Shown here one piece after another: positions 3,861-48,994 of a stretch of 64,000 nt of DNA. The notes under the pieces are model-generated. The model did no database searches and was not told the DNA's origin. It saw nothing but the letters and a program-made list of their open reading frames with translations. The stretch is from contig PLNW01000083.1 of the NCBI GenBank assembly GCA_003142855.1, positions 124,001 to 188,000 on the forward strand, read 5' to 3'. Within the stretch, counting starts at the first letter, position 1; each line of letters begins with the position of its first letter. This DNA comes from Myxococcales bacterium. GTDB lineage: Bacteria > Myxococcota_A > Polyangia > Fen-1088. The position numbers and the translations under genes were made by a program.

Positions 3861-4020
3861 GCAACGGGACGCGAGCGCGACTTTTGCGAATGGCGTTTAG
3901 TCACTTTTGCCTATCGGAAAACTTGGATATACTTGCCAAGAAGATGCGCCCCAAGGTCAGGACAGCGACGCTTCCCTGGTCGCGGATGCATTTGCACTTC
4001 TCGGTGGGCGAGGTCAGGCG

Positions 4021-5409: not shown

Positions 5410-6661
5410 AACGGTGGTCGTTTGTTTGGCGGCGCTGGTTGGGGCCAGCGGGTGGGCCCGCGCTGAAACGGTCACGGCCAGCTCGACCACCATCGTTTCG
5501 GGCCAGCGCGATCCGCGCGATGGCACCGTGCACACGGTGGTGCCTTTCCTCGAGTTGGTTTCCCTGCGGGCCTCGGACATCAACAACGCCCTCTTCGACG
5601 ACACCCAGATCGTGGTTTCGGGCTGGGGCGAGGCGGTAGCGGGCGATCCGCGCGATGGAAAGAGCGTCTTGGGCGACGTGGACGTGGCCTACCTGCAGGG
5701 CTCGACCTGGAACCGGCGCGTGACCTTGCGCGCGGGCCGGCAGTTTGTGTTTCCGGGAACCGCGGGCAACGTGCAGCTTGACGGCCTTGCCCCCACGCTG
5801 CGGGTGGGGGCGGGATTCGGCTTGTCAGGATTCGTCGGTGTTCCGGTGACCCCACGCTTCGGCTACAGCCGGGGCGAGTTCACCAGCGGGGCCCGAGTGT
5901 TCTGGAGTCGTTCTTATGAATCAGAAGTGGGCGTTTCGGTCTTGGAAATCCTGGGGGCGGGACGGCATGTGTTCCGTCGGGATGCCGGGGTCGATGCCCG
6001 CTATCGAATCTTGGATTCGCTCGCCCTCAGCGGACTGGTGCGGTGGAGCCTCGCCGAGACCCGCATGGCTGAGGCCGATGCGGCGGCCAACTGGCAGCCC
6101 TGTCGCTACCTGGACGTGACCGCGGACTACCGGCGTACGGCCCCGGACTTGTTCTTGCCGCGATACTCGATCTTCGCGGTTTTTGCTCAGGAGACGCGCG
6201 ACGAATTCGGCGGTTATTTTTCTGTGCGGCCGTGGCTTCGCCGCCTGGACTTGCAAGGCGATTTTCACCAGGTGCACGATGCCAGTGGGTGGGGCTGGAA
6301 CACGGGAGGCAAGGCCACCCTGCGTCTTGGCAGCGGCGGGGGAACGCGGCTCGGCGTCGAAAGCCGGCGGCTAAAGATCCCGGGTGGTGGCTATCTCATG
6401 GGCCGCGCCTTTGCCTGGCAAACCATCACCACGAAGATTCGCGTGGTGGCCGATTTCGATGTCTATGACCTCGACCAGCGTCTGAACGGCCAAGATCGTT
6501 CGTTCTTTGCATCGGGCAGTCTGGTGTATGACTTGGCGCCGGCCTGGCGCGCGGTGCTCACCGGAATGGACAACGTGACCCCCTATGCGACACATCAGAT
6601 CGAGGGACTGCTCAAGATTGTCTATGACGGAGGCCATGTGCTGAGAGAGGTCACGCCGTGA
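5399..6661 (+). CDS. Outer-membrane beta-barrel, porin of a cytochrome conduit
   Basis: 420 residues. An N-terminal signal peptide ends near the ARA of GASGWARA. Alternating hydrophobic/polar strands rich in aromatic and Gly residues continue to the end, typical of a large barrel. There are no haem motifs. The gene overlaps the upstream cytochrome by 11 bases and the downstream cytochrome by 4 (GTGA). A barrel encoded between two multihaem cytochromes is the hallmark of OmbB- or MtrB-type complexes, where the barrel sheathes the electron path across the outer membrane. Sequence homology to those families could not be tested, so the role rests on fold and context. Confidence 0.8.
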   Translation: MATKTVVVCLAALVGASGWARAETVTASSTTIVSGQRDPRDGTVHTVVPFLELVSLRASDINNALFDDTQIVVSGWGEAVAGDPRDGKSVLGDVDVAYLQGSTWNRRVTLRAGRQFVFPGTAGNVQLDGLAPTLRVGAGFGLSGFVGVPVTPRFGYSRGEFTSGARVFWSRSYESEVGVSVLEILGAGRHVFRRDAGVDARYRILDSLALSGLVRWSLAETRMAEADAAANWQPCRYLDVTADYRRTAPDLFLPRYSIFAVFAQETRDEFGGYFSVRPWLRRLDLQGDFHQVHDASGWGWNTGGKATLRLGSGGGTRLGVESRRLKIPGGGYLMGRAFAWQTITTKIRVVADFDVYDLDQRLNGQDRSFFASGSLVYDLAPAWRAVLTGMDNVTPYATHQIEGLLKIVYDGGHVLREVTP

Positions 6662-7713
6662 GTGGTTCTGGAAAATGGATCGCGCTGGCAGCACTGGGCA
6701 TCGCGGCCTGCGCGACCATGCTGGGGACCAGGCGGGCCAAGCAGCCAGGCGAGGAGATTCGCCAGTCGCACGCGGCCCACAAGGATCTTCCCTGTGTGAT
6801 GTGCCACGAGGACGTGCCCGAGGCCAAGACGGTCACCGACCGCTTGCGACCGCCGGAGGCCAAGTGTCTGGAGTGTCACGCCGACAAGAAAGATCAGAAA
6901 GAGTGCGGCTACTGCCACACCGATCCGGCCCATCCCGGACCCTATCCGGCCGAGGTCCACACCATCATCATTTCGCACCAAACCCACCTCAAGCTGGTCA
7001 ACGACGATTGTAGCGCGTGCCACGTGAAGCTTTCGGAGTACGCGCGGCCCGGGCCCACACCGCCCACCATGAAGTCTTGCACCAAGTGCCACGAGCACAG
7101 GGTCGACTTCGACGAGGGCCGCTGTGGCACGTGCCACACCGATCTCAAGCGATTCCCGCTCAAGCCAGTGGCCGAGTTCTCACACGCCGGCGATTTCATC
7201 CGGCAGCACGCCAGCGTGGCACACGCGACCGCCGATGCATGCACGCAGTGCCACGACCAGACGTTCTGTGCCGATTGCCACGCTCAGACCGCCCCCATGC
7301 GCGTGGAACTCAAGTTCAGCGAGAACGTGACCAGCGACTTCATCCACCGCGGCGACTACCTGACCCGCCATAGCATCGAAGCGCGCTCCGATCCGGTTCT
7401 GTGCCAGCGCTGTCACGGCACGAGCTTCTGCTCGGCCTGCCACGATCAGGAGAACGTCGGGCCCGGCGGCAGCAACCCGCGCCGTCCGCACCCGCCGGGC
7501 TGGGCCTTTGCTGGCCCCACGTCCCACGGGGTGGCCGCTCGGCGCGACATCGTGAGCTGTGCCTCGTGCCACGATCAGGGGCTGAACTCAAACTGCGTCG
7601 GGTGTCACCGCGTGGGTGGCGTCGGCGGCAATCCGCATCCGATGCAGTGGCAGCAGAAGCACAGCCTGCCCGAAGCGTACGGCACGGCGATGTGCCAGTA
7701 CTGCCACAAGTAG
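6658..7713 (+). CDS. Periplasmic multihaem c-type cytochrome (13 haem motifs)
   Basis: 351 residues with a signal sequence ending in a possible lipobox (GIAAC) and 13 CXXCH motifs, from CVMCH to CQYCH at the extreme C-terminus. This gives about one haem per 26 residues, a wire-like density. Extra histidines (for example in HAAH, HQTH and HEH) could be distal ligands. The GTG start overlaps the barrel stop. In a conduit it would take electrons from periplasmic carriers and pass them through the barrel to the surface cytochrome (OmaB/MtrA role). The known OmaB group has fewer haems, so this is an analogue rather than a proven orthologue. Confidence 0.87.
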   Translation: MSGSGKWIALAALGIAACATMLGTRRAKQPGEEIRQSHAAHKDLPCVMCHEDVPEAKTVTDRLRPPEAKCLECHADKKDQKECGYCHTDPAHPGPYPAEVHTIIISHQTHLKLVNDDCSACHVKLSEYARPGPTPPTMKSCTKCHEHRVDFDEGRCGTCHTDLKRFPLKPVAEFSHAGDFIRQHASVAHATADACTQCHDQTFCADCHAQTAPMRVELKFSENVTSDFIHRGDYLTRHSIEARSDPVLCQRCHGTSFCSACHDQENVGPGGSNPRRPHPPGWAFAGPTSHGVAARRDIVSCASCHDQGLNSNCVGCHRVGGVGGNPHPMQWQQKHSLPEAYGTAMCQYCHK

Positions 7714-25803: not shown

Positions 25804-25816
25804 CTATCGCGATAGC
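25803..25816. terminator. Perfect palindrome at the lepB/kinase convergence
   Basis: GCTATCGCGATAGC is a 14-base perfect palindrome beginning at the last base of the lepB stop and running into the 3' end of the convergent kinase gene. The two stops abut as TAGCTA. It has no T run, so any role in ending transcription in both directions would not be the classic intrinsic type. Confidence 0.3.
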
Positions 25817-27084
25817 AAGTAGATGGCAGTACCAACGACCACCAGAATCGCTCCCACCACCGCAATCACGCGCTTCGCTTCCCGTCGCACGGGAGCGGCA
25901 TCTAGGGTGGCGAGAACCTCGGCGATGTGTTGGCGAAGCGCCCCAGCGCTTTCGTGACGGTCATCGCAACCCTTGGCCACCATTTTCAGAACCACCTCGT
26001 CCACGGCGGCCGGGATGGCCAGGTCGGGGCGCAGACTCGACGGGGCAGGGGCTGCCTCCTGCAAGTGGAATTGGATGACTTCCGTCGTGCTCTTGGCGCC
26101 TTTGAAAGGAAGCTGCCCGGTGAGCATCTCGTAGGCGACCATGCCTAGCGCGTAGATATCCGAACGCCCGTCGAGCGCCTTGCCGCGCAGCTGTTCGGGC
26201 GACATGAATTCCAGGGTTCCCACTGTCTGCCCGATAGCCGTCAGCGCGGGAATGATCTTGCTTCCCTCACCGGACAGGATCTTGGCGATTCCGAAGTCGA
26301 GCACTTTGACGAAATCTGCCCCGCCACGCCGCTCGACCATGATGTTCTCGGGCTTCATGTCACGATGGACAATGCCCTTGTCGTGCGCTTCGCCTAGGGC
26401 TTCCGCGACCTGGTCCAAGATGCAAAGAGCGCGGCTCGTTTCGATGACGCCGTCCCGGTGCTGGATCTCCTGCAGGCTCTCGCCTCGCACCAACTCCATG
26501 GCGAGGTAGAGGACTCCGTCCTCGGTCTGGTCGAAATCGTAGATGGTGACGGTGTGCGGGTTGCGCAGTTGCGAGCAGGCCTCGGCTTCGCGCCGGAAGC
26601 GGGCCACCACGGTGGCGTCGGCCACGCTGTGGGGATGCAAGATCTTGAGCGCCACCGGCCGCCCGGTGGCGAGCTGCTTGCCTTCGAAGACCGCGCCGAA
26701 TCCACCTTCGCCGATTTTGCGTTCGACCTGATAGCGGTTGTTGAGGCTCCGACCCACCAGGCTGTCCAGAGACGCCGGCCGGGGACTGGCGGCAATCGGT
26801 GGCGGAGTCAGCGGACGCGAAGCAGCGGGTCCGGATCGGCCAGAACTGGCCGGGGTCAGGGGAACACCAGCGGCCGGGCTCATCACGCGCACGCCGGTGG
26901 CGGGGCTCATGGCGCGGACCCCGCTGGGATGGGCCAGGGCGGACTGGAGGGCTCGGTCGAGCGCTCGCTCGAAGTTCGCAGAAGCACCCGGTGCCGCCAC
27001 CGGTATGGGCGCGCCGCAAACGCCGCAGAAGCGAGCGGCCGGCTCAGCGGCGGTGTTGCACTGGGGGCATACTCTAGTCGCCAT
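25804..27084 (-). CDS. Ser/Thr protein kinase with zinc ribbon and C-terminal anchor
   Basis: 426 residues. An N-terminal zinc ribbon (C6, C9, C20, C23) is followed by an Ala/Pro-rich linker and then a Hanks-type kinase domain (about 100-370): IGEGGFGAVF, VALKIL, catalytic HRDMKPENIMV, DFGIAKIL and MSPEQLRG. A C-terminal hydrophobic segment (VIAVVGAILVVVGTAIYLL) anchors it with the kinase in the cytosol. It is the last gene of a minus-strand trio with PP2C and FHA genes (12 bases after PP2C), the partners expected to reverse and read its phosphorylation. Confidence 0.93.
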   Translation of the reverse strand: MATRVCPQCNTAAEPAARFCGVCGAPIPVAAPGASANFERALDRALQSALAHPSGVRAMSPATGVRVMSPAAGVPLTPASSGRSGPAASRPLTPPPIAASPRPASLDSLVGRSLNNRYQVERKIGEGGFGAVFEGKQLATGRPVALKILHPHSVADATVVARFRREAEACSQLRNPHTVTIYDFDQTEDGVLYLAMELVRGESLQEIQHRDGVIETSRALCILDQVAEALGEAHDKGIVHRDMKPENIMVERRGGADFVKVLDFGIAKILSGEGSKIIPALTAIGQTVGTLEFMSPEQLRGKALDGRSDIYALGMVAYEMLTGQLPFKGAKSTTEVIQFHLQEAAPAPSSLRPDLAIPAAVDEVVLKMVAKGCDDRHESAGALRQHIAEVLATLDAAPVRREAKRVIAVVGAILVVVGTAIYLLSR

Positions 27085-27096
27085 GGGTTCCCGCAG

Positions 27097-28371
27097 CTAT
27101 GGCTCTCTCCCGGCGTCAGCCGGGCGGTTGGGCGCCGCGAGCATCTCGGGATGGACAGCCGCGGGTGGTGTGGCCGACGGGGACGCTAGCTTGCCGTGCG
27201 AGATGAAGCTAGGCCTCTCGAAACTGCGATCCGGTATCGCGGCCCGCTGATAGACCAGAAACAGGGCTCCAGCCAGCGCCGCCAGCAGGGTGACCAGAAC
27301 AAAGGCAAGCACAGATCGAGCCTCTGGGATGGGCTGCGCGGGGGCAATGGTTGTCGCGGCTGGTTTCCCGGCGGGGCTGTTGGCAGCGGGTTCCCCGGGC
27401 ACGGATAGGTCGGATGCGGTGGCGCGCAGTTCTTCTCCAGGGGCCATTTCGCCCGTCGCCTGCTCGGGCGACGGCGGGCCTTTTCCCGGCTCAGGGTCTT
27501 CCGGATCCTGACCCGGGTCGTACGCTAGAAACGCCACCGCCTCCTCGGCGCCCGGCTCAGGCAGGCCTTCACCATCAAATCGGGCCAGCACCACCGTGAT
27601 GTTGTCGGGGCCATCGTGCGCATTGGCGCACCCGATGAGCCGATCACAGGCCTTTTTCACGTCAGGCTCATCAAGCAGTATCTGCTTGATTTCGTCGTCG
27701 CTGACCGGGCCGTGCAAGCCGTCCGAGCAGACCAGGATCACGTCGCCCCGATGGAGCGAGACTTGCGAGAGCACGACCTCCACCTTGTCCTGGACGCCCA
27801 GCGCTTGCAGGATGATGTTCGCGTGCTCGAAGCCTTTGGCCTCTTCCAGGGTCATGGCTCCGGCTTCGATGAGCTGCCAGGCCAGGGATTGGTCTTTGGT
27901 TGCTTGGCTCAGGTGACCGCCGCGCAGGACGTAGCAGCGCGAATCGCCGATCTGTCCTATCAGCAATGTGGCGTCGACCAGTCCAACCGCCGTGCAGGTC
28001 GTGCCCATTCCGCGCTCGTTCTGGTTGTCGCGCGACTGGACGAAGATACTGTCGTTGGCCGCTTCGATCGCGCGGCGCAGGCGACGCGCAAAACGTTCGC
28101 GCGTCAGCGGTTCGCCGCTGCCGACCGCCGACGAGATGGACTCCACGGCCATGGTGGAGGCGACTTCACCCGCGGCGGCACCGCCCATGCCGTCGCACAC
28201 CAGAAACAGAGCCCCCTTCTCGCCCAGCAAAAAGTCGAGTGAGATCTCGGGCGAGGGCTTTTCCACATGGGCGAAGTCCACCACGAGGAAGTTGTCCTCG
28301 TTGTGCTCACGCAACTGGCCCACGTCGGTCTTGCCACAGACCGTGATTTTGATTTCAGAAGAGCTTGCCAT
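27097..28371 (-). CDS. PP2C-type protein phosphatase, membrane anchored
   Basis: 424-residue metal-dependent Ser/Thr phosphatase. The conserved motifs are in order: DVGQLREHNEDNF, FLVCDGMGGAAAGEVAS, MGTTCTAVGL, IGQIGDSRCYVLR, SDGLHG and DNITVVLARF. A Pro/Glu-rich linker and one membrane segment near 355-375 (VLAFVLVTLLAALAGALFL) follow, with a short extracytoplasmic tail. Encoded between the FHA protein and the kinase, it is the likely off switch for that kinase. Confidence 0.94.
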   Translation of the reverse strand: MASSSEIKITVCGKTDVGQLREHNEDNFLVVDFAHVEKPSPEISLDFLLGEKGALFLVCDGMGGAAAGEVASTMAVESISSAVGSGEPLTRERFARRLRRAIEAANDSIFVQSRDNQNERGMGTTCTAVGLVDATLLIGQIGDSRCYVLRGGHLSQATKDQSLAWQLIEAGAMTLEEAKGFEHANIILQALGVQDKVEVVLSQVSLHRGDVILVCSDGLHGPVSDDEIKQILLDEPDVKKACDRLIGCANAHDGPDNITVVLARFDGEGLPEPGAEEAVAFLAYDPGQDPEDPEPGKGPPSPEQATGEMAPGEELRATASDLSVPGEPAANSPAGKPAATTIAPAQPIPEARSVLAFVLVTLLAALAGALFLVYQRAAIPDRSFERPSFISHGKLASPSATPPAAVHPEMLAAPNRPADAGREP

Positions 28372-28427: not shown

Positions 28428-29336
28428 TCAACTTATCTCGAAGCGCAAGAGTTCATCGCCGAGCCGAATCATTTCGCCAGGGGTCAGGACATGCTGCCCG
28501 GTGAGGCGGACGAAGGTGCCGTTCGAGCTGCCCAGGTCGGATAGGAGCGCGCTGCCATTGCGAAACTGAAGCAGGGCGTGGCGGCGCGACATAAATTCAT
28601 CGTCGGAGAAAACGATATCGCCCTGTTCGCGGCCCAGCACGAGGTCACTGCGGGTGAGGTGGAACATGTCACGGCTGGTTCCTGCCGAGGTGAGCTGGCG
28701 CAGCCGTCCCCAGGGCGCCTTGAGCGGCGTGCCGAACAGGACTATGCCGTGCTCGACGGCAGGACGCAGGGTCTTCTCGACATCGGACAAGAACTCGAAG
28801 CGCAGGACCTGCTTGCCGACCAGAATCAGGTTGCCGTCCGCCAGTTCCACCGCTTGGCCGATACGTCGGTAGACGCCGTTGCGGTTCTCAAGGGGCGTGA
28901 TCACGTATTGGCCGGCGCGCAGGGTGATGCGGGCATGGCGTGGGGCGAGATGCGGATCGTCGAAGTGGAGATCGCCTTCACTGCGTCCAATGTCCACCTG
29001 CTCGCCGGCGACAGGGTACGACTCGCCATCACTGCCATCGCGTCGCACGGCTACCAGCCGCGGCCCGCCAGCCTGGCGAGCCGCCGCGACCGAGGGACGG
29101 GCCGCCACCGCTGCGGCTAGGGCCGCCGAGGCGTCGGCGCTCATGGGAGTGGTGTGGCCGAGACGGCGGCCGCAGGCGTGGCAGAAGTTGGTCCCCATCG
29201 GGTTCTGATTGCCACATCCAGCGCAGAGCAGGGTCGAGTCCGTCACGGACGGCAACCCCACGGGAGCGCCGCAGCGTTGGCAGAAGGCAGCGCCCTCCGC
29301 GAGCGCCCCGCCACATTGGAGACAACTAATGAGCAT
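28428..29336 (-). CDS. Protein with two zinc ribbons and two FHA domains
   Basis: 302 residues: zinc ribbon 1 (C5, C8, C19, C22), zinc ribbon 2 (CAGC...CHAC), then two FHA domains. The second is canonical: GREQGDIVFSD, SRRHALL and DLGSSNGTFV. The first lacks the full SxxH/NG pattern (APRHARI and LENRNGVYRR) and may be weaker. FHA domains bind phosphothreonine, so it probably acts as the adaptor for the kinase encoded downstream. It is first in the minus-strand trio. Confidence 0.9.
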   Translation of the reverse strand: MLISCLQCGGALAEGAAFCQRCGAPVGLPSVTDSTLLCAGCGNQNPMGTNFCHACGRRLGHTTPMSADASAALAAAVAARPSVAAARQAGGPRLVAVRRDGSDGESYPVAGEQVDIGRSEGDLHFDDPHLAPRHARITLRAGQYVITPLENRNGVYRRIGQAVELADGNLILVGKQVLRFEFLSDVEKTLRPAVEHGIVLFGTPLKAPWGRLRQLTSAGTSRDMFHLTRSDLVLGREQGDIVFSDDEFMSRRHALLQFRNGSALLSDLGSSNGTFVRLTGQHVLTPGEMIRLGDELLRFEIS

Positions 29337-29450
29337 CTTCGCTAGTCGTTGCTAGAAAGCGCCGGCGACCGTTGCAAGGCAGCCCATCCTCTACTAGAAG
29401 GCGAGCGGGACGTTCACTGTCGAGACGGGCATGACACCCACCCATTCATC

Positions 29451-30617
29451 GTGCAGCAACTAATACCAACGATTCCGGAGAGCGTCAAATCCGCGCGAAG
29501 CGGATTCTGGTCGAAATTGGCTGTGGCCACCTGGCTTGCCGCGCTCGTGTCGTCGTGCGGTCCGGTGGTGGAAAATGCGCCGTTTTCGGCGCGGCCGGAC
29601 ACGTTGCGGCCCGGCGACCTGCTGGGCCCGTTTGACGGGCTGGTTGTCGACGGAGAAACCGACCATCCGCTGGCGGGAGTCGTGGTGGCGGGTGCTTGGG
29701 CTTTCGAGCGTGGCATCGGACTGCAGGGCCCGGCCGCCGCGCTTGAGGCGGTCGCTGAAACCGGCGCAGACGGCCGCTATCGGCTCAAAATCCCCGAGGA
29801 TCTACCCCGAGGCGACGGGGTCCGCCTGCGACGGTTCACGCTCATCGCCTACCGGCGGGGGTACGTGGCCTGGCGGAGCGACAGCATTTTCCCGACGGGA
29901 GAGCCGCGCACCGACTTCGCCCAGCGGGGAACGCGGGTGCATCTGGCGAAATGGCAGTCCTCCATGTCCCACTTCAGGCACCTGGCTTTTCTGGGCGGCG
30001 GTCCTGCCATCCGCGCGGCGGCGGCCTGGGAAGTGCAGCCGGCGGGACTGGAGCTTGACGGTGCCTCGCCCGCAAGCGCTTCCGAGCGTCCGGCAGAGGC
30101 TGCGCGGGTCGGCTCCTCGGCGGCGCTCGACATCTCTCCGCTTCTGTCCGAGGACGAGGTGCGTGGCGTGACCGGGTACGCTGGAAAGTTCGAAGTGGGC
30201 AAGTTGGCTGACCGAGCGACCAGTGACGTGTATGACAGCCGCCACTTCAAGGCCAGCGACAAGCCCGAGACCCATGACGTTGGACTGCGGGTGTGGGCCA
30301 TCGGGTCGGATGCCGCTGAGGCGCAATTCAGAAAGCTACTCGGCGATCTCCCGAACGCGGTTGCGACCGAAGAGATGGGAGATGCATCCTTGCGGGCCAG
30401 GGGCGGCGACGTGACCGGGTTTGCTTTCTTGCTGCGGGAGAAAGGGGTCGTGATGCAGCTGAGTTGCGGCCTTGCTCAGTGCTCTGAGCCATCGATGATC
30501 CTGCGTCTTGCCAAGCTGGCGGAGAGCCATTTGCCCGAGGTCAAGCTGCCGTCACCAGAGAGCACTGGACTTCTGCCTGCGTCGGGCCCGGCGCTTGCGC
30601 CAGGAGGCAAGCCGTGA
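29451..30617 (+). CDS. Predicted lipoprotein with carboxypeptidase-regulatory-like fold
   Basis: 388 residues from the GTG at 29451, chosen because it gives a basic n-region and a lipobox (VSSC). Residues near 65-140 (GPFDGLVVDGETDHPLAGVVV, then TGADGRYRLKIPED) look like a transthyretin-like regulatory module used in surface proteins. The C-terminal half contains a FAFLLREKGVVMQLSCG-like segment of unknown fold. It overlaps the next gene by 4 bases. No specific function is recognised. Confidence 0.65.
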   Translation: MQQLIPTIPESVKSARSGFWSKLAVATWLAALVSSCGPVVENAPFSARPDTLRPGDLLGPFDGLVVDGETDHPLAGVVVAGAWAFERGIGLQGPAAALEAVAETGADGRYRLKIPEDLPRGDGVRLRRFTLIAYRRGYVAWRSDSIFPTGEPRTDFAQRGTRVHLAKWQSSMSHFRHLAFLGGGPAIRAAAAWEVQPAGLELDGASPASASERPAEAARVGSSAALDISPLLSEDEVRGVTGYAGKFEVGKLADRATSDVYDSRHFKASDKPETHDVGLRVWAIGSDAAEAQFRKLLGDLPNAVATEEMGDASLRARGGDVTGFAFLLREKGVVMQLSCGLAQCSEPSMILRLAKLAESHLPEVKLPSPESTGLLPASGPALAPGGKP

Positions 30618-32065
30618 AACGCTCGAGCCTTCTCGCCCGTGCGCGGTTCAACCTGGCGGCACTCGTGGGTGCCTGGGCAATGTTCAGCCATCCGGCTGCG
30701 CGCGCCTATGAGCCCGCCCCCACGCATGCCGGCTTGACCGAGCGAGCGGTAGAAGCCTCTCGCCTGCACCAGGTACTCGCCCATCTGGGACGGCCGCTGG
30801 GACTCCTCGAACCCTTGCACATCGGCCTCGACCTCTTCGACCGAGACGAGCGGCGGGCCTGGCAAGCTCGGCTCGACGCGCTTGACCCGGCGGGCGGGTA
30901 CCGGCCGGGGACTGACGGCGTGCAGGGCGCGGGCGAGTGGGTGATGGCAGGTGCGGTGCTGGCCAAGACGCCGCCCGAGCGTGGCGCGAATCACTTCCTG
31001 GATCCGGCAACCGGGAAGGGTCTGCACGATGACCCGGGGTTGTCAGGCTTGGCCCACAGCCTGCGTCTGCTGTTTGATGGCGGCGCGAGCGTGCGCAGTC
31101 TGGCCGCGGGCACGGCCTTTACCCTGGAGGGCAAGTCCGCGCTGGACTGGATCTGGTCGCCCGGCAATGACCTGGGCGTTTCCGTCCTGCTCGACAACTG
31201 GGAGCGCGCCGTCAGCTTGGCTGAGCCGCGTGCGCGCGAATCGGCCTTGGTGCGGGCGCTGCTGGCCCTGGGCGGGGTGATGTCGGTGCTCGAGGACGCC
31301 GGGCAACCAGCCTTCGTGCGCAACGACTTCCGGGGCGAGTTCTTGCAGCGGGACGATGGGTCGGCCTACGAGCAGTTCGTGGCAGAGCACTACGGCCGCT
31401 CGGGGCTTCCTGCCGCGGCTGCGCCGGTGTCCCGCCCTGGCATCGCCAGCTTCTTCGCGTCTGCCGATGGCAAGGGACTGGCCAATCGGACTCAGCGTCG
31501 CTTCTTCTCCGAGGGTACCATCCCCGCCGATGTCTCGATCGAGCGGGACACCAAGGTGGCCGACGTGGCTCGCCGAGCGCGTGAATCGTTGGAGTTTCCC
31601 TCGCCCACGCTGTCCTCGCTGGTGCTGCGGCCGGTGCAGAGTCGCCACTACTTGGCTCTGGAAGGCCATCGCGTGCTCGCCTACGAAAACACCGGGACGC
31701 AGGTGCGTTTTTTTCTCGATGACGCTATCTACGCGGACATGGCGCGCACCTTGCTGCCTGAGATCGCCGGCTACGCAGCGGGCCTGCTCAACCACCTGTT
31801 GCGGGCGCGTTTGGAGATGACGGTTGCGGGAACGAGCGTGACGGTTCGCCTGGGCGGTGAGGTCAAGGAGGGTGGGGCGCTACGCGTGTTTGTCGAGGAC
31901 GGGAGTGGGCGGCGGCGTGAGCTGCCGGGAAGTGCAGCGTCGCTTGCACCGGGTGGCGAGATTGCAATCAGCGCGCCGGCCGGCGCCAGGAAGCTGGCCG
32001 CGGTACTGCGCGGACGCGACGCCGCTGGGCCTTTCGTGGCCGCAGGCGAAGTGACGCTGCCCTGA
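30614..32065 (+). CDS. Secreted zinc-phospholipase-C-like protein lacking key zinc ligands
   Basis: 483 residues with a signal peptide (cleavage after ARA). The order of elements resembles the zinc-dependent phospholipase C/S1 nuclease fold: THAGLTERAV with H38, GANHFLDP with H127, and VLEDAGQPAFVRND. The last segment corresponds to the HxxxDxxxxxH motif but carries S224 and F234 where the family has zinc-binding His; D228 is kept. A beta-rich C-terminal domain of about 90 residues follows. Probably non-catalytic, or altered in metal use. Translationally coupled to the upstream lipoprotein. Confidence 0.6.
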   Translation: MKRSSLLARARFNLAALVGAWAMFSHPAARAYEPAPTHAGLTERAVEASRLHQVLAHLGRPLGLLEPLHIGLDLFDRDERRAWQARLDALDPAGGYRPGTDGVQGAGEWVMAGAVLAKTPPERGANHFLDPATGKGLHDDPGLSGLAHSLRLLFDGGASVRSLAAGTAFTLEGKSALDWIWSPGNDLGVSVLLDNWERAVSLAEPRARESALVRALLALGGVMSVLEDAGQPAFVRNDFRGEFLQRDDGSAYEQFVAEHYGRSGLPAAAAPVSRPGIASFFASADGKGLANRTQRRFFSEGTIPADVSIERDTKVADVARRARESLEFPSPTLSSLVLRPVQSRHYLALEGHRVLAYENTGTQVRFFLDDAIYADMARTLLPEIAGYAAGLLNHLLRARLEMTVAGTSVTVRLGGEVKEGGALRVFVEDGSGRRRELPGSAASLAPGGEIAISAPAGARKLAAVLRGRDAAGPFVAAGEVTLP

Positions 32066-32072
32066 GTTCGGC

Positions 32073-33182
32073 CTACTGGGTGATCGCGGTCAGTCCTTCG
32101 ACGCAGAAGTCCCAGGGGACCGGCGTCGGGGGCGCAGCCGGAATCTGGAATTGAAGCAGGATAATCGTGGTGGGATCCCAGGTTTCCTTGGTCTCCCACG
32201 TGGCCTGTCCAAATCCGGTATCCGTGAAGAGAACCGTGTGCTGGCCCATCGCGATTTCCTGCTCGAAGTAGGGATTGTCGTTGTTGTTCTTCGTGGTGAA
32301 CGCGACTCGAATCCCAGTTCCTGCGGGGAGCGTGGTTCCCGACAACAGGAAGCAGAATCCTTTGACCCCATGTGATGTGGCGTTGTACGGCTGCTGCCCA
32401 CCAGTGTCGTTCAACTCAAGCGCGATGCCGGCACCCCACCCGGTGGCGGACTTCCCAGTCGATCCAGTTGTGCACATCTTGCCGTTGGTGTTTGGAAAGC
32501 CTGTCATCGAGGGGGGCTGGGTCTGGGCCGAGCAGTTGACATTCTTCAGATCAACGCAATCGCTGTAGTAGAACCAGTTGCCGTTGATTCCGACGGAATT
32601 GGCTGGCACATTGCCAGTGGCGTCTGGAACGATCGCGACACCCGGGCAGCCGGATCCGGAGCCAGTCGAGGTACTCGCTGTTGTCGTTCCGCCGGTCACC
32701 GTCGTTCCGCCCGCTACCGTCGTCCCGCCAGTGACCGCCGAGCCACCGACACAATTAGCGCAGCCGCCCGTCACGAGTGAGCCACCAGTCACGACTGAGC
32801 CGCCGGCCACCGTCGTGCCGCCGGCCATCGTCGTGCCGCCAACCACCGTCGTGCCGCCAGCGACCGTCGTGCCGCCGGCCACCGTCATGCCACCGGCCAT
32901 CGTCGTGCCGCCAGCCACCGTCGCGCCGCCGATCACCGTTGTGCCGCCAGCGACCGTCGTGCCACCGGCCACCGTCGTGCCGCCGGCCACCGTTGTGCCG
33001 CCGATCGCATTCCCGCCAGATGCACTCTGGCCGGCCGATCCTGGAACGCCTCCTGCGCCACCATTCCCGCCACCGCCTTGGTTTGTAGAACTGGGCATAC
33101 AACCTTGAGCCAGCAGAACAACTGCCAAACCGACCATTGTGAAAGAGTATTTCCCGCGACTATTGATGAGCATCTTCAACAT
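32073..33182 (-). CDS. Lipoprotein with GGTTVA hexapeptide repeats and C-terminal domain
   Basis: 369 residues. Lipobox LAQGC near residue 28. Residues about 60-170 are a run of some 17 hexapeptides of the form GGTTVA, with variants (GGTTMA, GGATVA, GGSVVT) and one seven-residue unit GGCANCV with two cysteines. The roughly 190-residue C-terminal domain (NGNWFYYSDC onward, with paired cysteines and a TWETKETWDPTTIILLQFQI strand) looks like a secreted beta-sandwich, perhaps sugar binding. The repeat is probably a surface stalk. The start may be the ATG at residue 16. Function unknown. Confidence 0.65.
   Translation of the reverse strand: MLKMLINSRGKYSFTMVGLAVVLLAQGCMPSSTNQGGGGNGGAGGVPGSAGQSASGGNAIGGTTVAGGTTVAGGTTVAGGTTVIGGATVAGGTTMAGGMTVAGGTTVAGGTTVVGGTTMAGGTTVAGGSVVTGGSLVTGGCANCVGGSAVTGGTTVAGGTTVTGGTTTASTSTGSGSGCPGVAIVPDATGNVPANSVGINGNWFYYSDCVDLKNVNCSAQTQPPSMTGFPNTNGKMCTTGSTGKSATGWGAGIALELNDTGGQQPYNATSHGVKGFCFLLSGTTLPAGTGIRVAFTTKNNNDNPYFEQEIAMGQHTVLFTDTGFGQATWETKETWDPTTIILLQFQIPAAPPTPVPWDFCVEGLTAITQ
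32688..33003. repeat. 18-base minisatellite encoding the hexapeptide run
   Basis: Near-identical 18-base units of the form ACCGTCGTGCCGCCGGCC repeat in phase with codons of the minus-strand gene. Differences between units are mostly silent or conservative (GCC/AGC, ACC/ATC). This is a region prone to slippage and length change that would keep the frame. Confidence 0.85.
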
Positions 33183-34466: not shown

Positions 34467-36296
34467 CTAGCGCTGCAATACGGTGTCTGAGATGTTCACG
34501 CCGCCAGCTTCCAGCTTGCCAGCCAGGCGTGATGGCGTGCGGGTGGCGATGAAGCGACCTTTGCCTTTGCCTTTGCTTTGCCAGGCCAGAAGGGTCTCGG
34601 CGCGCAGTTCGCCAGCGGATCCCAAAGTGGGCTCGGCAATCTCCATGATCCGGATGCTCCCGTCAGTGAGAGTGACGGCATGGACCAGCACGTCGAGGCT
34701 CGATCCGAGCAGGTCATTGGGCGTCGACGATGAACCGTAGGTCGCGCCCATCACCCGCAGTCGGTAGAGGGCATCATTGGACGAGCGGGCGATCAATGCG
34801 GTGAGAGCGCCGTTTTGCCCCCGGGCGCACTCGCGTAGCAAATCGCCCAAGAGCATGGATGCAGCGGCGTCGGCGACGACATAGTCCGGTCTGAGCGCCA
34901 CCGCGGCGGCGACCAGGTCAGGAACGCGGGCCGCGACCGGCAGTTTCAGCCAGGCAGATGCGCTGGCAGGCGGGGTGATGGTTTCGGCCAAAACCACGAC
35001 GCGTGCCACTCGATCGAGCGACCAGGCCAAGGTGCCTAGCAGCAGGTCGCAAGACGCGCGGTCACCAGCAACGAGCAGGTTCTGCCGGGTGCTTACGCAG
35101 GCTTCGAGGACTTGCTGCATTTCCGCAGAAAGTCCGCCGTCGGTCACCATTTCGTCCAGGGTCTTGTGGCCAACATTCGGCCGTCGGATTGAGGCGCGCA
35201 GGCGGTCGCACAGGGGCGGAAACAGGGCGGTGATGCGTGTGCCATCGGCGAGGGTTGTGTCGATGACCGACGCATCGGGTTCCGGTCGCGGCACGCCTCT
35301 GGCAGCCAGCCTACGCAGATGGTCCGGCAGCGACGCCAAATCGGCGGACGCGACCACACCAGCCTCTCGACGGCCGTTCCGCTCAACCTCCACGGATTGC
35401 GTTCCGGAGAAGAACGCCGCGGTTGCGTCCTCGCTGTCCAGCAAGCGAACCAGCCAGGGTGGGTAGTCTCCGCCTGCTTGTGCCGGTGCTGCCGAAGGGG
35501 CAGCCGGGGGAGGGAAGGCGGGCGGGGCGGGCGGCGGCGGGGGGGCGGCACGCTCAGGCTCTCGGGTCAGTTGCGCCGGGGGCGTGCCCCGAGGTGTGGT
35601 CAGCGGCTCGTCGGGCGACGGCGACGGCGTCGGCGTCGGGACGGGAACCGGCGGTCTCAGCGGCGGGAGGTTCAGTCGCGGCGCAGGGCTGGATAGCGCA
35701 TCATCATCGTCCAGGCTGATTTCCGTAGGTAGCGGCGGCGCAGGAAGCGGCTCGGCAGCCACCACAGGAATGGTCTTGCTCTCTCGCCTGGGGGGTGGCG
35801 GGGGCGGTGGCGCGGGGACATGGGCCTTCGACCCGCGGGAGGGCTTGGGCCCGGAACCCTCATCGCCCCCGTACAGGGCGCCGGGCCGCGGGGGCGGCGG
35901 AGGCGGCGGGGCGCGACGGGGCAGGGCTGTGCTGAGCGAGCCTGCTTCGGCCGTCGAAGGTGCGTAGGGCGGCGGAGTGGAGCCGAGCTGTGGCTCGGCT
36001 GCGCGCACCCCGCCGGTCACTCGAATGGCGAAATCGCCGACGAAGACCTTGTCAGAGGTTGAGATCGACGTGGCCTCGGCGATCTTGCGGCCGTTCACAT
36101 AAGTCCCGTTGGTGCTGCCCAAATCTTCCACCAGGAGCTGGCCATTCTGTAGCAGCAGGCGACAGTGGTGCTTGGACACGTTGCCCTTGGGAAGGACGAT
36201 GTCGTTGTCCCGGACCCGTCCTACTCGAATCTCAGTCTTGTCAAAGGTGAGATCCTTGGACTCTCCACCTTTCTCGGCCAGCGTCAGGATCAGCAT
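34467..36296 (-). CDS. FHA domain fused to a CpaF-like domain without ATPase motifs
   Basis: 609 residues. An N-terminal FHA domain (1-95; VGRVRDNDIVLP, SKHHCRLL, DLGSTNGTYVNG) is joined by a Pro-rich linker of about 200 residues to a region that follows CpaF/TadA secretion ATPases: TLDEMVTDGGLSAEMQQVLEACV, then the Walker A position. There VAGDRASCD (409-417) replaces GGTGSGKT, and RPDYVVAD (from 470) replaces the Walker B-side RPDRIVVGE. It should not hydrolyse ATP in the usual way. Possibly a phospho-dependent regulator of a pilus or secretion system; none is encoded nearby. Confidence 0.78.
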   Translation of the reverse strand: MLILTLAEKGGESKDLTFDKTEIRVGRVRDNDIVLPKGNVSKHHCRLLLQNGQLLVEDLGSTNGTYVNGRKIAEATSISTSDKVFVGDFAIRVTGGVRAAEPQLGSTPPPYAPSTAEAGSLSTALPRRAPPPPPPPRPGALYGGDEGSGPKPSRGSKAHVPAPPPPPPPRRESKTIPVVAAEPLPAPPLPTEISLDDDDALSSPAPRLNLPPLRPPVPVPTPTPSPSPDEPLTTPRGTPPAQLTREPERAAPPPPPAPPAFPPPAAPSAAPAQAGGDYPPWLVRLLDSEDATAAFFSGTQSVEVERNGRREAGVVASADLASLPDHLRRLAARGVPRPEPDASVIDTTLADGTRITALFPPLCDRLRASIRRPNVGHKTLDEMVTDGGLSAEMQQVLEACVSTRQNLLVAGDRASCDLLLGTLAWSLDRVARVVVLAETITPPASASAWLKLPVAARVPDLVAAAVALRPDYVVADAAASMLLGDLLRECARGQNGALTALIARSSNDALYRLRVMGATYGSSSTPNDLLGSSLDVLVHAVTLTDGSIRIMEIAEPTLGSAGELRAETLLAWQSKGKGKGRFIATRTPSRLAGKLEAGGVNISDTVLQR

Positions 36297-36441
36297 GGCA
36301 TCACGCTAAGCAAAAACGCGTCCCTTGTCCACTTGGGTCGTCGTAGGATTTGGCGACTACCCCGTCGGGCCGGTCTGTGGTGCAATGGTGGGGAGCCCGT
36401 TGCGGCCGCAATCATCAACTGTTCAAATGGAGGGCGTGACC

Positions 36442-37035
36442 ATGCAGATCTCAAGAGTCGCTGCTTTGGCTGGAATGCTGACCGTGGCATTTAGCTTCTC
36501 AGGTCGTGCCCGTGGCGACTCAGCAAAACCAAAGTATTACTTCACTATAAGTAATATAACCTCTGAAGATAAAACGATTATTTCTTTGGCAAAAGAGCTC
36601 CTCGCCAAGGAAATTTCGTCTCGATCCGAATTCACCCAGGACCTGGGCGGCGCCGAGGGTGAGGCCGCGGCCACCGCGGAGATGAAGAAGCGAGGGCTGA
36701 AGGGCTTTCAGGTCAACCTGCGCATCATGACCTTCAAGCAGGAGATCAAGCCGCCGGTGCCCGGCCGACGCGATCAGCAAATGGCCATCCAGGTCAAGCT
36801 GGGCGTCTACGGCACAACCTACCCGGGAGGCAAGCTCAACTTCACCGGCGACGGCGAGGCGTCGCTCCTGGGCGAGTTTTCCGAGCGTCGCAGGGAGAGC
36901 GACGTGCAGAACCTGATGAAAACGGCCCTGGCCAGTGCGCTCAAGCAGGCGGTCAGCACAGCGGTCGACAAGATGTCCACCGCCACGCTGCCAGAGTCGC
37001 CTCGCCGCAAGGGCAAGCGGCACAAGTCCCAATAG
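36442..37035 (+). CDS. Secreted protein of unknown function with an AT-rich 5' patch
   Basis: 197 residues from the ATG at 36442, which follows GGAGGG at 36429. Signal peptide cleaved near RARGD. The mature part is alpha/beta with a strand repeat (FQVNLRIMTFKQEI and MAIQVKLGVYGTTYPGG) and a basic C-terminus (PRRKGKRHKSQ). Codons between about 36527 and 36598 are strikingly A/T-rich compared with the rest of the gene. No family recognised. The gene ends 25 bases before the glutaredoxin-like gene. Confidence 0.65.
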   Translation: MQISRVAALAGMLTVAFSFSGRARGDSAKPKYYFTISNITSEDKTIISLAKELLAKEISSRSEFTQDLGGAEGEAAATAEMKKRGLKGFQVNLRIMTFKQEIKPPVPGRRDQQMAIQVKLGVYGTTYPGGKLNFTGDGEASLLGEFSERRRESDVQNLMKTALASALKQAVSTAVDKMSTATLPESPRRKGKRHKSQ

Positions 37036-43293: not shown

Positions 43294-45552
43294 ATGGCGA
43301 TGTCCTCGACGTTCGACGCCAAGGCTTGGCTGGGCCAAATCACCGCGGACATGCGCGAGGCCTATGCCCGCAACCGGCGGGTGATGTCGTTTGGTGAGTA
43401 CCTGACCCTGTTCGAGATCGACATGCCCGGCCAGGTGCGTTCGGCCGCCCAGTACCTGCGTGACGTATTTGATCACTACGGGACCAGCACGGTGCGCGGG
43501 CCCCGCGGCGCGCTCACCCACTGGCAGCTCTTCGACTGTCCCTGGGACGAGGGCCGCGACAGCCTGAAAGGCCAGGAAGAGGTACAGGCTGCTGTCTATC
43601 GCCTGCTGTCGAACTTTGCGCGCCAAGGGCGCAGCAACCGACTCATCCTGCTGCACGGCCCGAATGGCAGTGCCAAGTCGACCTTCGTGTCGTGTCTGCA
43701 ACGGGCCATGGAGCACTACTCGTCGCTGGATGCGGGCGCGCTCTATCGCTTCAACTGGATTTTCCCCTCGCAGCGCTCGGGCAAGGGTGGCATCGGCTTC
43801 GGCGGAGGCCTGTCCCCTGAAAGTCAAGCGGCTGGCGAAAGCTACGCGTACCTGGAAGATGATTTGGTCGAGTCGAAGATCGTCGACGAGCTGCGCGACC
43901 ATCCCATCCTGCTCTTGCCGCGGGCGGAGCGGCGCACTTGGATTGAGGAGAAGCTCAAAGACCAGATCGCGGCCGGTCTGCGGCCCGCGCGGGCGTTGCT
44001 CGACGGTGATCTCTCGCATCGCAACCGTCAGATCTTCGACGCGCTGCTGGTTTCGTACCAGGGTGATCTCGCCAAGGTGTTGCGCCACGTGCAGGTGGAG
44101 CGTTTTTTCATTTCGCGGCGCTATCGCCAGTCGCTGGCCACGGTTGAGCCACAGCTCGCGGTGGACGCGCGGGTGCGTCCGCTGACCATGGACCGATCGC
44201 TCGCCACCCTGCCACCGGCGCTGCAGTCGCTCACGCTTTTTGAGTTCTGCGGCGAGTTGGTCGACGGCAACCGCGGGCTGCTGGATTTCGACGACCTACT
44301 CAAGCGGCCTCTCGACGCATTCAAGTACCTCCTCGGTGTGGTGGAGGACGGAATGACATCGCTGGAAGTGGCCAGCATCGCCGTGGATACGGTGTTCTTG
44401 GCCACGGCCAACGAGAGCTACCTGGCGGCGTTCAAGGAAAGCCCCGAGTTCCAGTCTTTCAAGGGGCGCATGGAACTGGTGCGCGCGCCCTACCTGCTCG
44501 ACCATCGGCTCGAGCAACAGATCTACGACGCGCGCATGGCTGAGGCGATGGGCGCGCATGCGGACCGGCACGTGGCCCCGCACGTGACCTGGGTGGCGGC
44601 GCTGTGGGCGGTGCTCACGCGCATGAGAAAGCCCAGCCCGGAGAAATACCCCGAGGGGCTGGCTGACTTGGTCGCTCGCCTCAGTCCCAGCGACAAAGCG
44701 CGGCTGTACGCGGGCGAGGCGCCGGAGTCGTTCTCGCCCGAAGAGCAGAAGCAGCTTCTGGCAAGCGTGGAGCTCATCGCCCGCGAGTCGGACAGCTACC
44801 CTCACTACGAAGGCCGTTCGGGCGCCTCGCCGCGCGAGATGACCTTGCTGCTGATGAACGCAGCCCAGAGCGCGAAATGGAAGTGCGTGTCGCCTTTCGC
44901 CGTGTTGGAGGAACTGGAGGAGCTGGTGCGCGCGGTGAGCGTGTACGAGTTCTTGCGCCAGGAACCCATGCCTGGGGGATTTCACGACAACGGCCAGTTC
45001 ATCACTCAAGTGCATGACCGCCTGATCGAGCGCATCGACGACGAGGTGCGCACCTCGATGGGGCTGGTCGATGAGCGACGTTATCTCGAACAGTTCGAAC
45101 GCTACCTCACCCAGGTGTCGTGTTGGGTGAAGCACGAGAAGTACCACAATCCCGTGACCGGCCAGGACGAGGACGCGGACGAGGATCTCATGGCCGAGGT
45201 GGAGCATGCGCTGCACGTGGAGACGGGCGATGGGGGAGCCGCGGCCTTCCGGCGCGAGATCATCGCCAAGATTGGTGCTTGGTCCCTAGACCATCGGGAC
45301 CAGCGCCCCGACTATGAGCGGATTTTTCCGCGGCCCCTGGCTGAGCTGCGTGAGGCGTTCTTTTCCGAGCGTCGAAAGGTGGTGCGCAAGATCAACGAGG
45401 ACATTCTGATCTACCTGGTCGACGGACCGAGCCGAATGGCGCCGGATGCCGCCGCAGCGTCACGGCGGACGCTGGACACGCTGCAATCGCGCTTTGGCTA
45501 CTGCGAGCATTGCGCGAAGGATGCCGTGCTGGCCTTGGTTCGCAGCCGCTAG
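43294..45552 (+). CDS. prkA: PrkA-type serine protein kinase/AAA protein
   Basis: 752 residues, the usual size of PrkA. The AAA core has Walker A HGPNGSAKST and an arginine-rich middle with TVFLATANESYLAAF (sensor 1-like). The C-terminal region carries the PrkA kinase-like module (YLEQFERYLTQVSCWVKHEKYHNP). Known members act in stress and sporulation; protease activity has also been reported for the family. The usual yeaH and spoVR neighbours are missing. The stop shares CTAG with the next, convergent gene. Confidence 0.9.
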   Translation: MAMSSTFDAKAWLGQITADMREAYARNRRVMSFGEYLTLFEIDMPGQVRSAAQYLRDVFDHYGTSTVRGPRGALTHWQLFDCPWDEGRDSLKGQEEVQAAVYRLLSNFARQGRSNRLILLHGPNGSAKSTFVSCLQRAMEHYSSLDAGALYRFNWIFPSQRSGKGGIGFGGGLSPESQAAGESYAYLEDDLVESKIVDELRDHPILLLPRAERRTWIEEKLKDQIAAGLRPARALLDGDLSHRNRQIFDALLVSYQGDLAKVLRHVQVERFFISRRYRQSLATVEPQLAVDARVRPLTMDRSLATLPPALQSLTLFEFCGELVDGNRGLLDFDDLLKRPLDAFKYLLGVVEDGMTSLEVASIAVDTVFLATANESYLAAFKESPEFQSFKGRMELVRAPYLLDHRLEQQIYDARMAEAMGAHADRHVAPHVTWVAALWAVLTRMRKPSPEKYPEGLADLVARLSPSDKARLYAGEAPESFSPEEQKQLLASVELIARESDSYPHYEGRSGASPREMTLLLMNAAQSAKWKCVSPFAVLEELEELVRAVSVYEFLRQEPMPGGFHDNGQFITQVHDRLIERIDDEVRTSMGLVDERRYLEQFERYLTQVSCWVKHEKYHNPVTGQDEDADEDLMAEVEHALHVETGDGGAAAFRREIIAKIGAWSLDHRDQRPDYERIFPRPLAELREAFFSERRKVVRKINEDILIYLVDGPSRMAPDAAAASRRTLDTLQSRFGYCEHCAKDAVLALVRSR

Positions 45553-46323: not shown

Positions 46324-47563
46324 TTAGGCGAGAGCGGAATTCTCAGTACGCGTAGCGACTTCCCGCACGCGGCTGAGCACAGCGTGGGCGTTCATCACGC
46401 GGGCGTAGATGTAGAGGGCAGCCGGCAATCCCTCGTCGAGGGCCGCCTCACTGACGCGCAGGTGCTTGCTGACGGCGAAGACCACAGCCTGGGGTAGTCC
46501 CTTGCGTGCCAGCTCGATGCGCTTCCAGACAGCCTCGCGGCTCCAGAAGCCGAGAACTTCCAGATAGACCGTCTGCCCGGTTTGCTCGTGCACAAACTCC
46601 AGGTCGGGCACGCACTGGCCCACGCCCGGAAGATCGAGAATCGCGTCGCACAGGGCTGGCCGCCAGGGACCGGGCAAAGCGGAAAGATCGTGGAGGAGCG
46701 CGGCCACTTCGTCGGGAAGGGTGCTGGTCGGATGTCCGCGACCATTCCCGTCGACCAATTCTCCTGCGAGCGGGCCGCGCACAGCATAGCGCAAGGGCCG
46801 CCGCTCGCGACCCCAGCGCAGGTCGGCCTCGATGGTGAAGCGGTCGCAGGCCATCAGCGCCGGCAAGGCGAGCGCGAGCTGAAGCCCATACTTGGTCACC
46901 GACTCGAAGAGGCTGTAGGGGCCATCGATGTGAAGACGATAGCCGGCGTGCTTGGGCAGGGCCTCGATGCGATGGAGCAGACGCAGAAACTTGAGCTTGC
47001 GGAAGAGATGGCGATAGTTCGCGGGAACCGCGCTCCACACCGTGGCGCGTACGCTCAGCGCGCGCAGCAGGACCGCCTGGTGTTGCGCGAGATGGTGCTC
47101 GGCCAGCAAGGCTTCAGGCGCAAGCAGGCGCGCCTCGCGAAGAATGTGGGCGTCGGCTAGGTCGGCAAACAGCGCGCGCTCGATGCCGTCGCTGGCCACC
47201 CTGCGCTCGGTCGCCAGCGCCGCGACAACGGCGGCGCGATCAAAGGCGGCGTGCCCGGCCTCGCGGCGCACGCTGGCGGCGTGGGTGAAGAGCGTGCGGC
47301 GCAGCTCTATCGGATCCATGGCCGCATCTGCTTCGAATTCACAGCGGTCGAGCACCAACTTCAGCAGGCCACGAGCCAGGCGTTGCTCGCGTGGCTCCAC
47401 ATCCACAGCGCCGCAGGCATCCAGCAGAGTGCCGCGAGACTGACCGACATGCGCGCGCGCAAGGTCAAGATAGGCGGTGGCCAGTTCCAGCGCGCGAGGC
47501 CGCTCACCCTCGGAAACCGGCACCACGAATAGACGATCGCCGCGCCGGCGCACGTGCACCATG

Positions 47564-47577
<14 letters not shown>
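46324..47577 (-). CDS. DUF790/Bax1-like nuclease partner of XPB
   Basis: 417 residues. The TTG at 47577 is chosen because it gives MLTADMVHVRRRGDRL, the family-like start, and follows GGAGG; it overlaps the helicase end by 14 bases. DUF790 is the family of archaeal Bax1, a structure-specific nuclease that binds XPB. The C-terminal region contains CVPDLEFVHEQTGQTVYLEVLGFW, with the D...E-x-x spacing and E-x-G/L of a PD-(D/E)XK-type nuclease core, and KRIELARKG. Confidence 0.82.

Positions 47578-48994
<1,417 letters not shown>

Follow-up and report, generated by a model that had tools for sequence, protein, structure and literature searches.

An FHA–CpaF fusion without catalytic motifs in Myxococcota, a candidate phosphothreonine-reading adaptor

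The Fusion Gene and Its Neighbourhood

The window (the whole stretch of 64,000 nucleotides analysed here) contains a gene for a 609-residue protein in which an N-terminal FHA domain is joined, through a long proline-rich linker, to a body with the fold of the Tad secretion ATPase CpaF (Table 1). The fusion had been proposed in a sequence-only reading that gave no strand; it was confirmed, and the gene lies on the minus strand. The same reading had called the FHA head intact, which was borne out by a Pfam match (PF00498, residues 23–83, E = 5.4e-17) and by the GR, S..H and STNG binding residues, which do not vary in 13 aligned orthologues of the window's family. Among the 103 fused genes of the census described below, 95 show these residues by a strict pattern, and in the other eight they were recognised by eye. 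The linker of the window protein occupies the place of both the linker and the three-helix bundle of CpaF.

Table 1. Coordinates of the fusion gene, its parts and its conserved neighbours in the window.
Feature	Position	Strand	Basis or occurrence
FHA–pseudoCpaF gene, 609 aa	34467..36296 (stop included)	minus	ORF and profile matches
FHA domain, residues 1–95	36012..36296	minus	Pfam match; 13 family orthologues aligned
Proline-rich low-complexity linker, residues 96–276 (181 residues)	35469..36011	minus	sequence; dN/dS 0.309
CpaF NTD-like part, residues 277–395	35112..35468	minus	AF2 model, fold match, residue alignment
CpaF ATPase-domain-like part, residues 396–609, catalytic boxes lost, C-terminal tail kept	34470..35111	minus	model, fold match, alignment
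Former Walker A, VAGDRASCD, residues 409–417	35046..35072	minus	sequence, family alignment
Former Walker B side, RPDYVVAD, residues 469–476	34869..34892	minus	sequence, alignment
F3, divergent neighbour, no Pfam/NCBIfam match	36325..37035	plus	relatives in 18/95 census-locus flanks
F1, conserved neighbour, no Pfam match	30614..32065	plus	26/95 census loci tested
F2, conserved neighbour, no Pfam match	29349..30617	plus	27/95 census loci tested
Zinc-ribbon protein with two FHA domains	28428..29336	minus	syntenic with fusion
Stp1-type PP2C Ser/Thr phosphatase	27097..28371	minus	syntenic with fusion, several families
Zinc-ribbon Ser/Thr protein kinase	25804..27084	minus	syntenic with fusion

The gene order of the family runs from the divergent F3 through the fusion, an SMI1/KNR4-TPR gene, F1, F2 and the zinc-ribbon FHA gene to the PP2C phosphatase and the kinase. 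The SMI1/KNR4-TPR match is absent in some family members, and the genus of the window has a PHO4 transporter gene at that position. The run from F1 and F2 to the FHA and PP2C genes also adjoins the fusion in six further loci (G030, G034, L143, L145, L153 and L169). Linkage to the kinase and phosphatase was seen only in certain families; it is lacking from the majority of the remaining loci compared, although many flanks are short. Two of the neighbour probes (ZnFHA and FHA_f3) partly matched the fusion itself and were left out of the counts.

Three observations on the genes beside the fusion may be recorded here. A protein with a long repeat of the GGTTVA type is encoded at 32073–33182, between F1 and the PHO4 gene. 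By eye, F1 (compare L077:12308–13879) is reminiscent of an exported zinc-phospholipase or nuclease. A histidine present in a relative (PAHVRND) is phenylalanine in the window (PAFVRND), and F1 may be losing a site of its own.

CpaF Homology and Loss of the Catalytic Residues

The Pfam T2SSE profile gave no match in the C-terminal half of the window protein and did not detect the gene in a search of its own genome; it was therefore dropped as a family detector in favour of a CpaF profile of 438 positions, built from 14 intact or nearly intact sequences. This profile matches the window protein at E = 3e-27 (profile positions 94–433), a single-sequence phmmer comparison with the solved CpaF chains gave E = 5.7e-18, and a genuine CpaF used as the query returned the window gene as the top match in its own genome (E = 5.5e-22). 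The NCBIfam TadA model matched at E = 1.1e-16, under its family cut-off. An AF2 model of residues 277–609, computed from 30 sequences, reached a mean pLDDT of 88.9 and a pTM of 0.82; Foldseek placed CpaF on top (E = 1.4e-24), and structural comparison with CpaF gave a Z score of 28.1 over 326–328 residues, from CpaF residue 146 to 497–499. In sequence, the homology spans both the NTD and the ATPase domain, and the NTD–CAD fold is present in the model. The CpaF relationship suggested by the sequence-only reading was thus upheld by profile search and by structure prediction alike.

With the residue roles given for active CpaF in the accessible part of PMC12019362 as the reference, K287 is replaced by aspartate in the window protein, T288 is lost in a gap, E312, R347 and E357 are all alanine, and R217 is threonine, while the equivalents of D215 and R223 are retained. 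The canonical Walker A motif GxxxxGK[ST] is absent, VAGDRASCD standing at its place (residues 409–417), and RPDYVVAD occupies the Walker B side (residues 469–476), so that the degenerate motifs named in the sequence-only reading were found as described. The Asp-box Glu, the Walker B Glu and the arginine finger R347 are each alanine, and the His-box histidines of active CpaF of the class (GHDGSLTTLHAN) have become Q and I. Every catalytic box is lost, and from these substitutions it is close to certain that catalysis is gone. The dead site is common to the 13 aligned family orthologues and to the other family rows examined; G411 and D412, within the former Walker A, are invariant across the 13.

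A further loss, absent from the sequence-only reading, concerns the three-helix bundle. This element comprises CpaF residues 80–146, and its removal abolishes CpaF expression in Caulobacter, according to the accessible part of PMC12019362. It is missing in the window protein, where the fold match begins at CpaF residue 146, and in the window's family, where the profile matches start at positions 86–98 of 438.

Distribution of the Fusion and Linkage to a Secretin

Of 133 genomes drawn from the class, 119 contain an FHA domain of the window type (hereafter type A, threshold E ≤ 1e-18). The census took one gene per genome; 20 of the 119 had a frame shorter than 500 aa, mostly through contig-end cuts, and were left out, and four census rows came from genomes outside the 133. 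Of the resulting 103 fused genes, 101 match the CpaF profile (two give no match), and four of these are without a Walker A alignment, leaving 97. Walker A, the Asp-box Glu, the Walker B Glu and the His box are all kept in only six of the 97, while the K[ST] of the P-loop is retained in 13, seven of them without the His box. Among the named carriers of decayed copies are Sorangium cellulosum, Minicystis rosea, Polyangium and Labilithrix. No type A match at E ≤ 1e-18 was obtained for G002, G007 and G013, which belong to the window's family, through either loss or an assembly gap.

The intact and decayed genes differ sharply in their surroundings: a gene for a KilC-type secretin adjoins all six intact fusions and none of the 91 others. 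Neighbours were probed in 97 of the 103 census loci, the other six (the window, G003, G005, G006, G015 and G017) being probed separately for the secretin. Where coordinates were read, the 3′ end of the secretin gene lies at most about 120 bases from the fusion gene. Truncated flanks cannot account for this difference, since at least 2 kb of upstream sequence is available in 76 of the 91 secretin-less loci. No secretin match was found anywhere in the 64-kb window, nor in the loci of the window's family.

At the place of Walker A, 20 of the 97 class members carry NL[DEN]RF within a conserved stretch of the CASGG type, so that another family has settled on a replacement of its own. In one family, comprising L265, L266, L268, L270, L276 and their kin, many genomes are very large, reaching 13 Mb, and the FHA fusion conserves a CASGGVNLDRF-like stretch where Walker A used to be. 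In the other classes of the phylum, eight of 20 fusions keep GK[ST], seven of these belonging to one family and the eighth to another. R347 is lost in the family that supplies the seven; six of the seven retain the Walker B Glu, and these proteins may be active.

Phylogeny and Order of Loss

Trees were built with the motif columns omitted; their weak points are long branches, some unsure row placements and quick searches in the 112-row tree and in the one that includes the other classes. All fusions, secretin-linked and secretin-less, form one clade (SH-aLRT 99 in the tree of 112 rows; 100/99 in that of 45 rows), and the window fusion shares its descent with the secretin-linked FHA–CpaF proteins of the same FHA type. 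The secretin-linked intact fusions lie at the base of this clade. The secretin-less group is likewise a single clade, with 95 rows and SH-aLRT 100 in the 112-row tree and with 30 of the 45 rows in the careful tree (100/100, recovered in 100% of bootstrap trees). Its first branch is G034, a bridging case in which Walker A, the Asp box and Walker B are intact, the His box is lost, no secretin is present and the gene order is that of the window. Loss of K[ST] needs three changes on the class tree, which means that, following the first step, decay of the P-loop occurred repeatedly. The 20 fusions from other classes nest within the decayed clade.

A second FHA–CpaF, intact, with a different FHA and located beside a secretin, was found alongside the type A gene in all six genomes fetched. 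The idea that the secretin-linked intact type A fusions are KilF itself was dropped on finding this second line. Two FHA–CpaF lines exist, in either of which the KilF of Myxococcus xanthus may sit, and a true and a retired motor can, given these six genomes, share one cell.

Selection, Retention and Tad Components

Values of dN/dS were calculated by the Nei–Gojobori method. Across five genus orthologues, all with open reading frames, the FHA domain gave 0.135, the pseudo-domain 0.166 and the linker 0.309. For the pseudo-domain of five further genera, whose sites are decayed or damaged, the range was 0.026–0.174, and an intact pair gave 0.097. The decayed CpaF domain is under purifying selection. 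That its value lies near that of the FHA domain supports the proposal that the fold was reused and did not simply decay. Among genomes without the Tad protein CpaB/RcpC, 62 of 68 retain the type A gene, as do 57 of the 65 that have this protein (Fisher p = 0.58); its retention is independent of Tad.

The source genome, which is 94% complete, yielded no CpaF match better than the window gene when queried with a genuine CpaF, no CpaB/RcpC and no single-domain TadB/C, T2SSF being found solely in two-domain frames of the PilC/GspF type. Eight T2SSE matches exceed the cut-off; five are PilT-like by eye, and the remaining three, all full-length, we take as PilB/GspE.

A Probable Retired Motor and Its Possible Reuse

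The reading that we favour, with a probability of roughly 0.6, is that the protein is a retired KilF-like Tad motor that has been reused as a phosphothreonine-reading adaptor near the conserved kinase, PP2C and FHA cluster. On this reading the ancestor was a KilF-like FHA–CpaF ATPase encoded next to a KilC-type secretin. Sequence, synteny and trees show that gene and secretin became separated in a single ancestral lineage, and that the His box was then lost first, with the P-loop and Walker B following later; the window's family has additionally lost the three-helix bundle. Selection has preserved the FHA head and the CpaF fold, as shown by dN/dS and wide retention. The FHA head would bind a phosphothreonine partner, and a Ser/Thr kinase and a PP2C phosphatase would govern the state of that partner, the simplest candidates being those of the nearby cluster; this part of the model is drawn mainly from the linkage of the cluster to the fusion, which is linkage and not proof. 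The proline-rich linker would tether an inert CpaF-fold body, acting as a protein-binding and perhaps still oligomeric scaffold, and such a complex would need no Tad machine. The sequence-only reading had likewise seen an ATPase fold turned into a phospho-regulated adaptor: the CpaF fold, the dead site, the FHA head and the reuse stand, and the adaptor role is what we infer from them.

That reading had further suggested, as a possibility, a functional CpaF partner elsewhere in the genome; in such a partnership the fusion would be a regulatory subunit of mixed rings. An intact CpaF does coexist with the decayed fusion in family members such as G009, G010 and G011, and the six sampled genomes combine an intact, secretin-linked FHA–CpaF with a type A fusion whose site is lost or damaged, the type A gene of two of them (G169 and G193) being on the contig by its FHA end alone. 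Against this, a search of the source genome and 38 relatives for a functional CpaF partner turned up none in the window's genus, and no paralogue with intact motifs, CpaB or TadB/C-like protein was found in the source genome itself; retention is equally common with and without CpaB, and the window's family is without the three-helix bundle. The partnership did not hold for this genome, and we regard mixed rings as quite improbable. The protein might also still work as a ring on a different type IV filament machine, which it would stabilise or brake without hydrolysis. The fold kept to the C-terminus speaks for this, and the source genome has genes of the PilB/PilT/GspE and PilC/GspF types; the neighbourhoods, read without a profile search, showed no type IVa pilus or type II secretion genes linked to the fusion, and the idea is, on balance, unlikely.

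The old nucleotide site might instead have acquired a new ligand or activity, for example through the conserved GD or, in another family, CASGGVNLDRF. The invariance of G411 and D412 and the recurrence of NL[DEN]RF in a fifth of the class members (20/97) speak for this, but no profile points to a ligand or chemistry and the replacement varies from family to family, which makes it improbable. Plain decay with no function left would fit the lost active site and the variable linker; it is at odds with the low pseudo-domain dN/dS within and beyond the genus, with the frames open in all five genus orthologues and with the presence of the type A FHA in 119 of 133 genomes. A pure pseudogene is refuted by these data unless dN/dS is badly biased, and we give plain decay hardly any credence.

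The adaptor reading may not extend to every member of the secretin-less clade. Part of that clade may still bind or hydrolyse ATP, because a P-loop with K[ST] is kept in 7 of its 91 members in the class and in 8 of 20 in other classes. For the phylum as a whole, we put at about even odds the broader proposal of a phylum-wide family of Myxococcota pseudo-motors: a single retirement, following separation from the secretin, would have turned a KilF-like Tad ATPase into a phosphothreonine-reading scaffold that is widely retained and has outlasted Tad in about half of the class genomes.

Relation to Known Systems

KilF (MXAN_3107) is the predicted motor of the Kil/Tad system of Myxococcus xanthus; its gene sits alongside that of a secretin in the kil cluster, and prey killing requires it, according to the accessible parts of PMC8460266 and PMC12075869. 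As described there, KilF resembles the window protein in having an N-terminal FHA fused to a CpaF fold, in its myxobacterial origin and in the FHA proteins around it; unlike KilF, the window protein has neither the catalytic boxes nor an adjacent secretin, and no CpaF or CpaB was found in its genome. The Tad ATPase form termed class III CpaF, with the order FHA-IDR-3HB-NTD-CAD, is mostly from betaproteobacteria in the accessible part of PMC12019362; the window protein shares the order of FHA, linker, NTD and CAD with the form described there but is without the three-helix bundle or an active site. The Caulobacter crescentus CpaF (8rjf, 9e24) is alike in fold over residues 146–499 (Z 28), but it has no FHA, and its K287, T288, E312, R347, E357 and R217 are changed in the window. 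The FHA part also matches OdhI, FhaB/FipA and TagH (NCBIfam, E 7e-18 to 9e-11, under the cut-offs), none of which, to our knowledge, has a CpaF fold. The protein is best regarded as related to KilF and class III CpaF but without the defining features of a motor, and it probably works as an FHA adaptor. No earlier description of an FHA–pseudoCpaF was found in the open-licence literature, and no pseudo-ATPases among type IV filament motors were met in the open-licence literature searched.

The fusions in living genomes trace a decay that begins with the intact motor and passes through intermediates to the dead scaffold, through which the change from a rotary motor to a signalling protein becomes testable. 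They also point to an unstudied circuit of Ser/Thr kinase, phosphatase and FHA proteins across part of a largely predatory phylum. Tad-like genes were reported absent from Sorangium and Polyangium in the accessible part of a survey (PMC10196010); both carry the decayed fusion, and gene counts based on homology could thus misread such fusions as motors.

Other Features of the Window

Two multihaem c-type cytochromes, with 9 and 13 CxxCH motifs, are encoded at 3907–7713 on either side of a 420-aa protein that has no Pfam match and is, by eye, similar to an outer-membrane barrel; the set looks like a porin–cytochrome conduit for extracellular electron transfer. A PrkA-type serine kinase of 752 aa is encoded at 43294–45552, the AAA_PrkA match covering only part of the model. 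At 46324–48994, a gene for an XPB/RAD25-type helicase with a damage-recognition domain adjoins and overlaps a DUF790 gene, a pairing that is better known from archaea.
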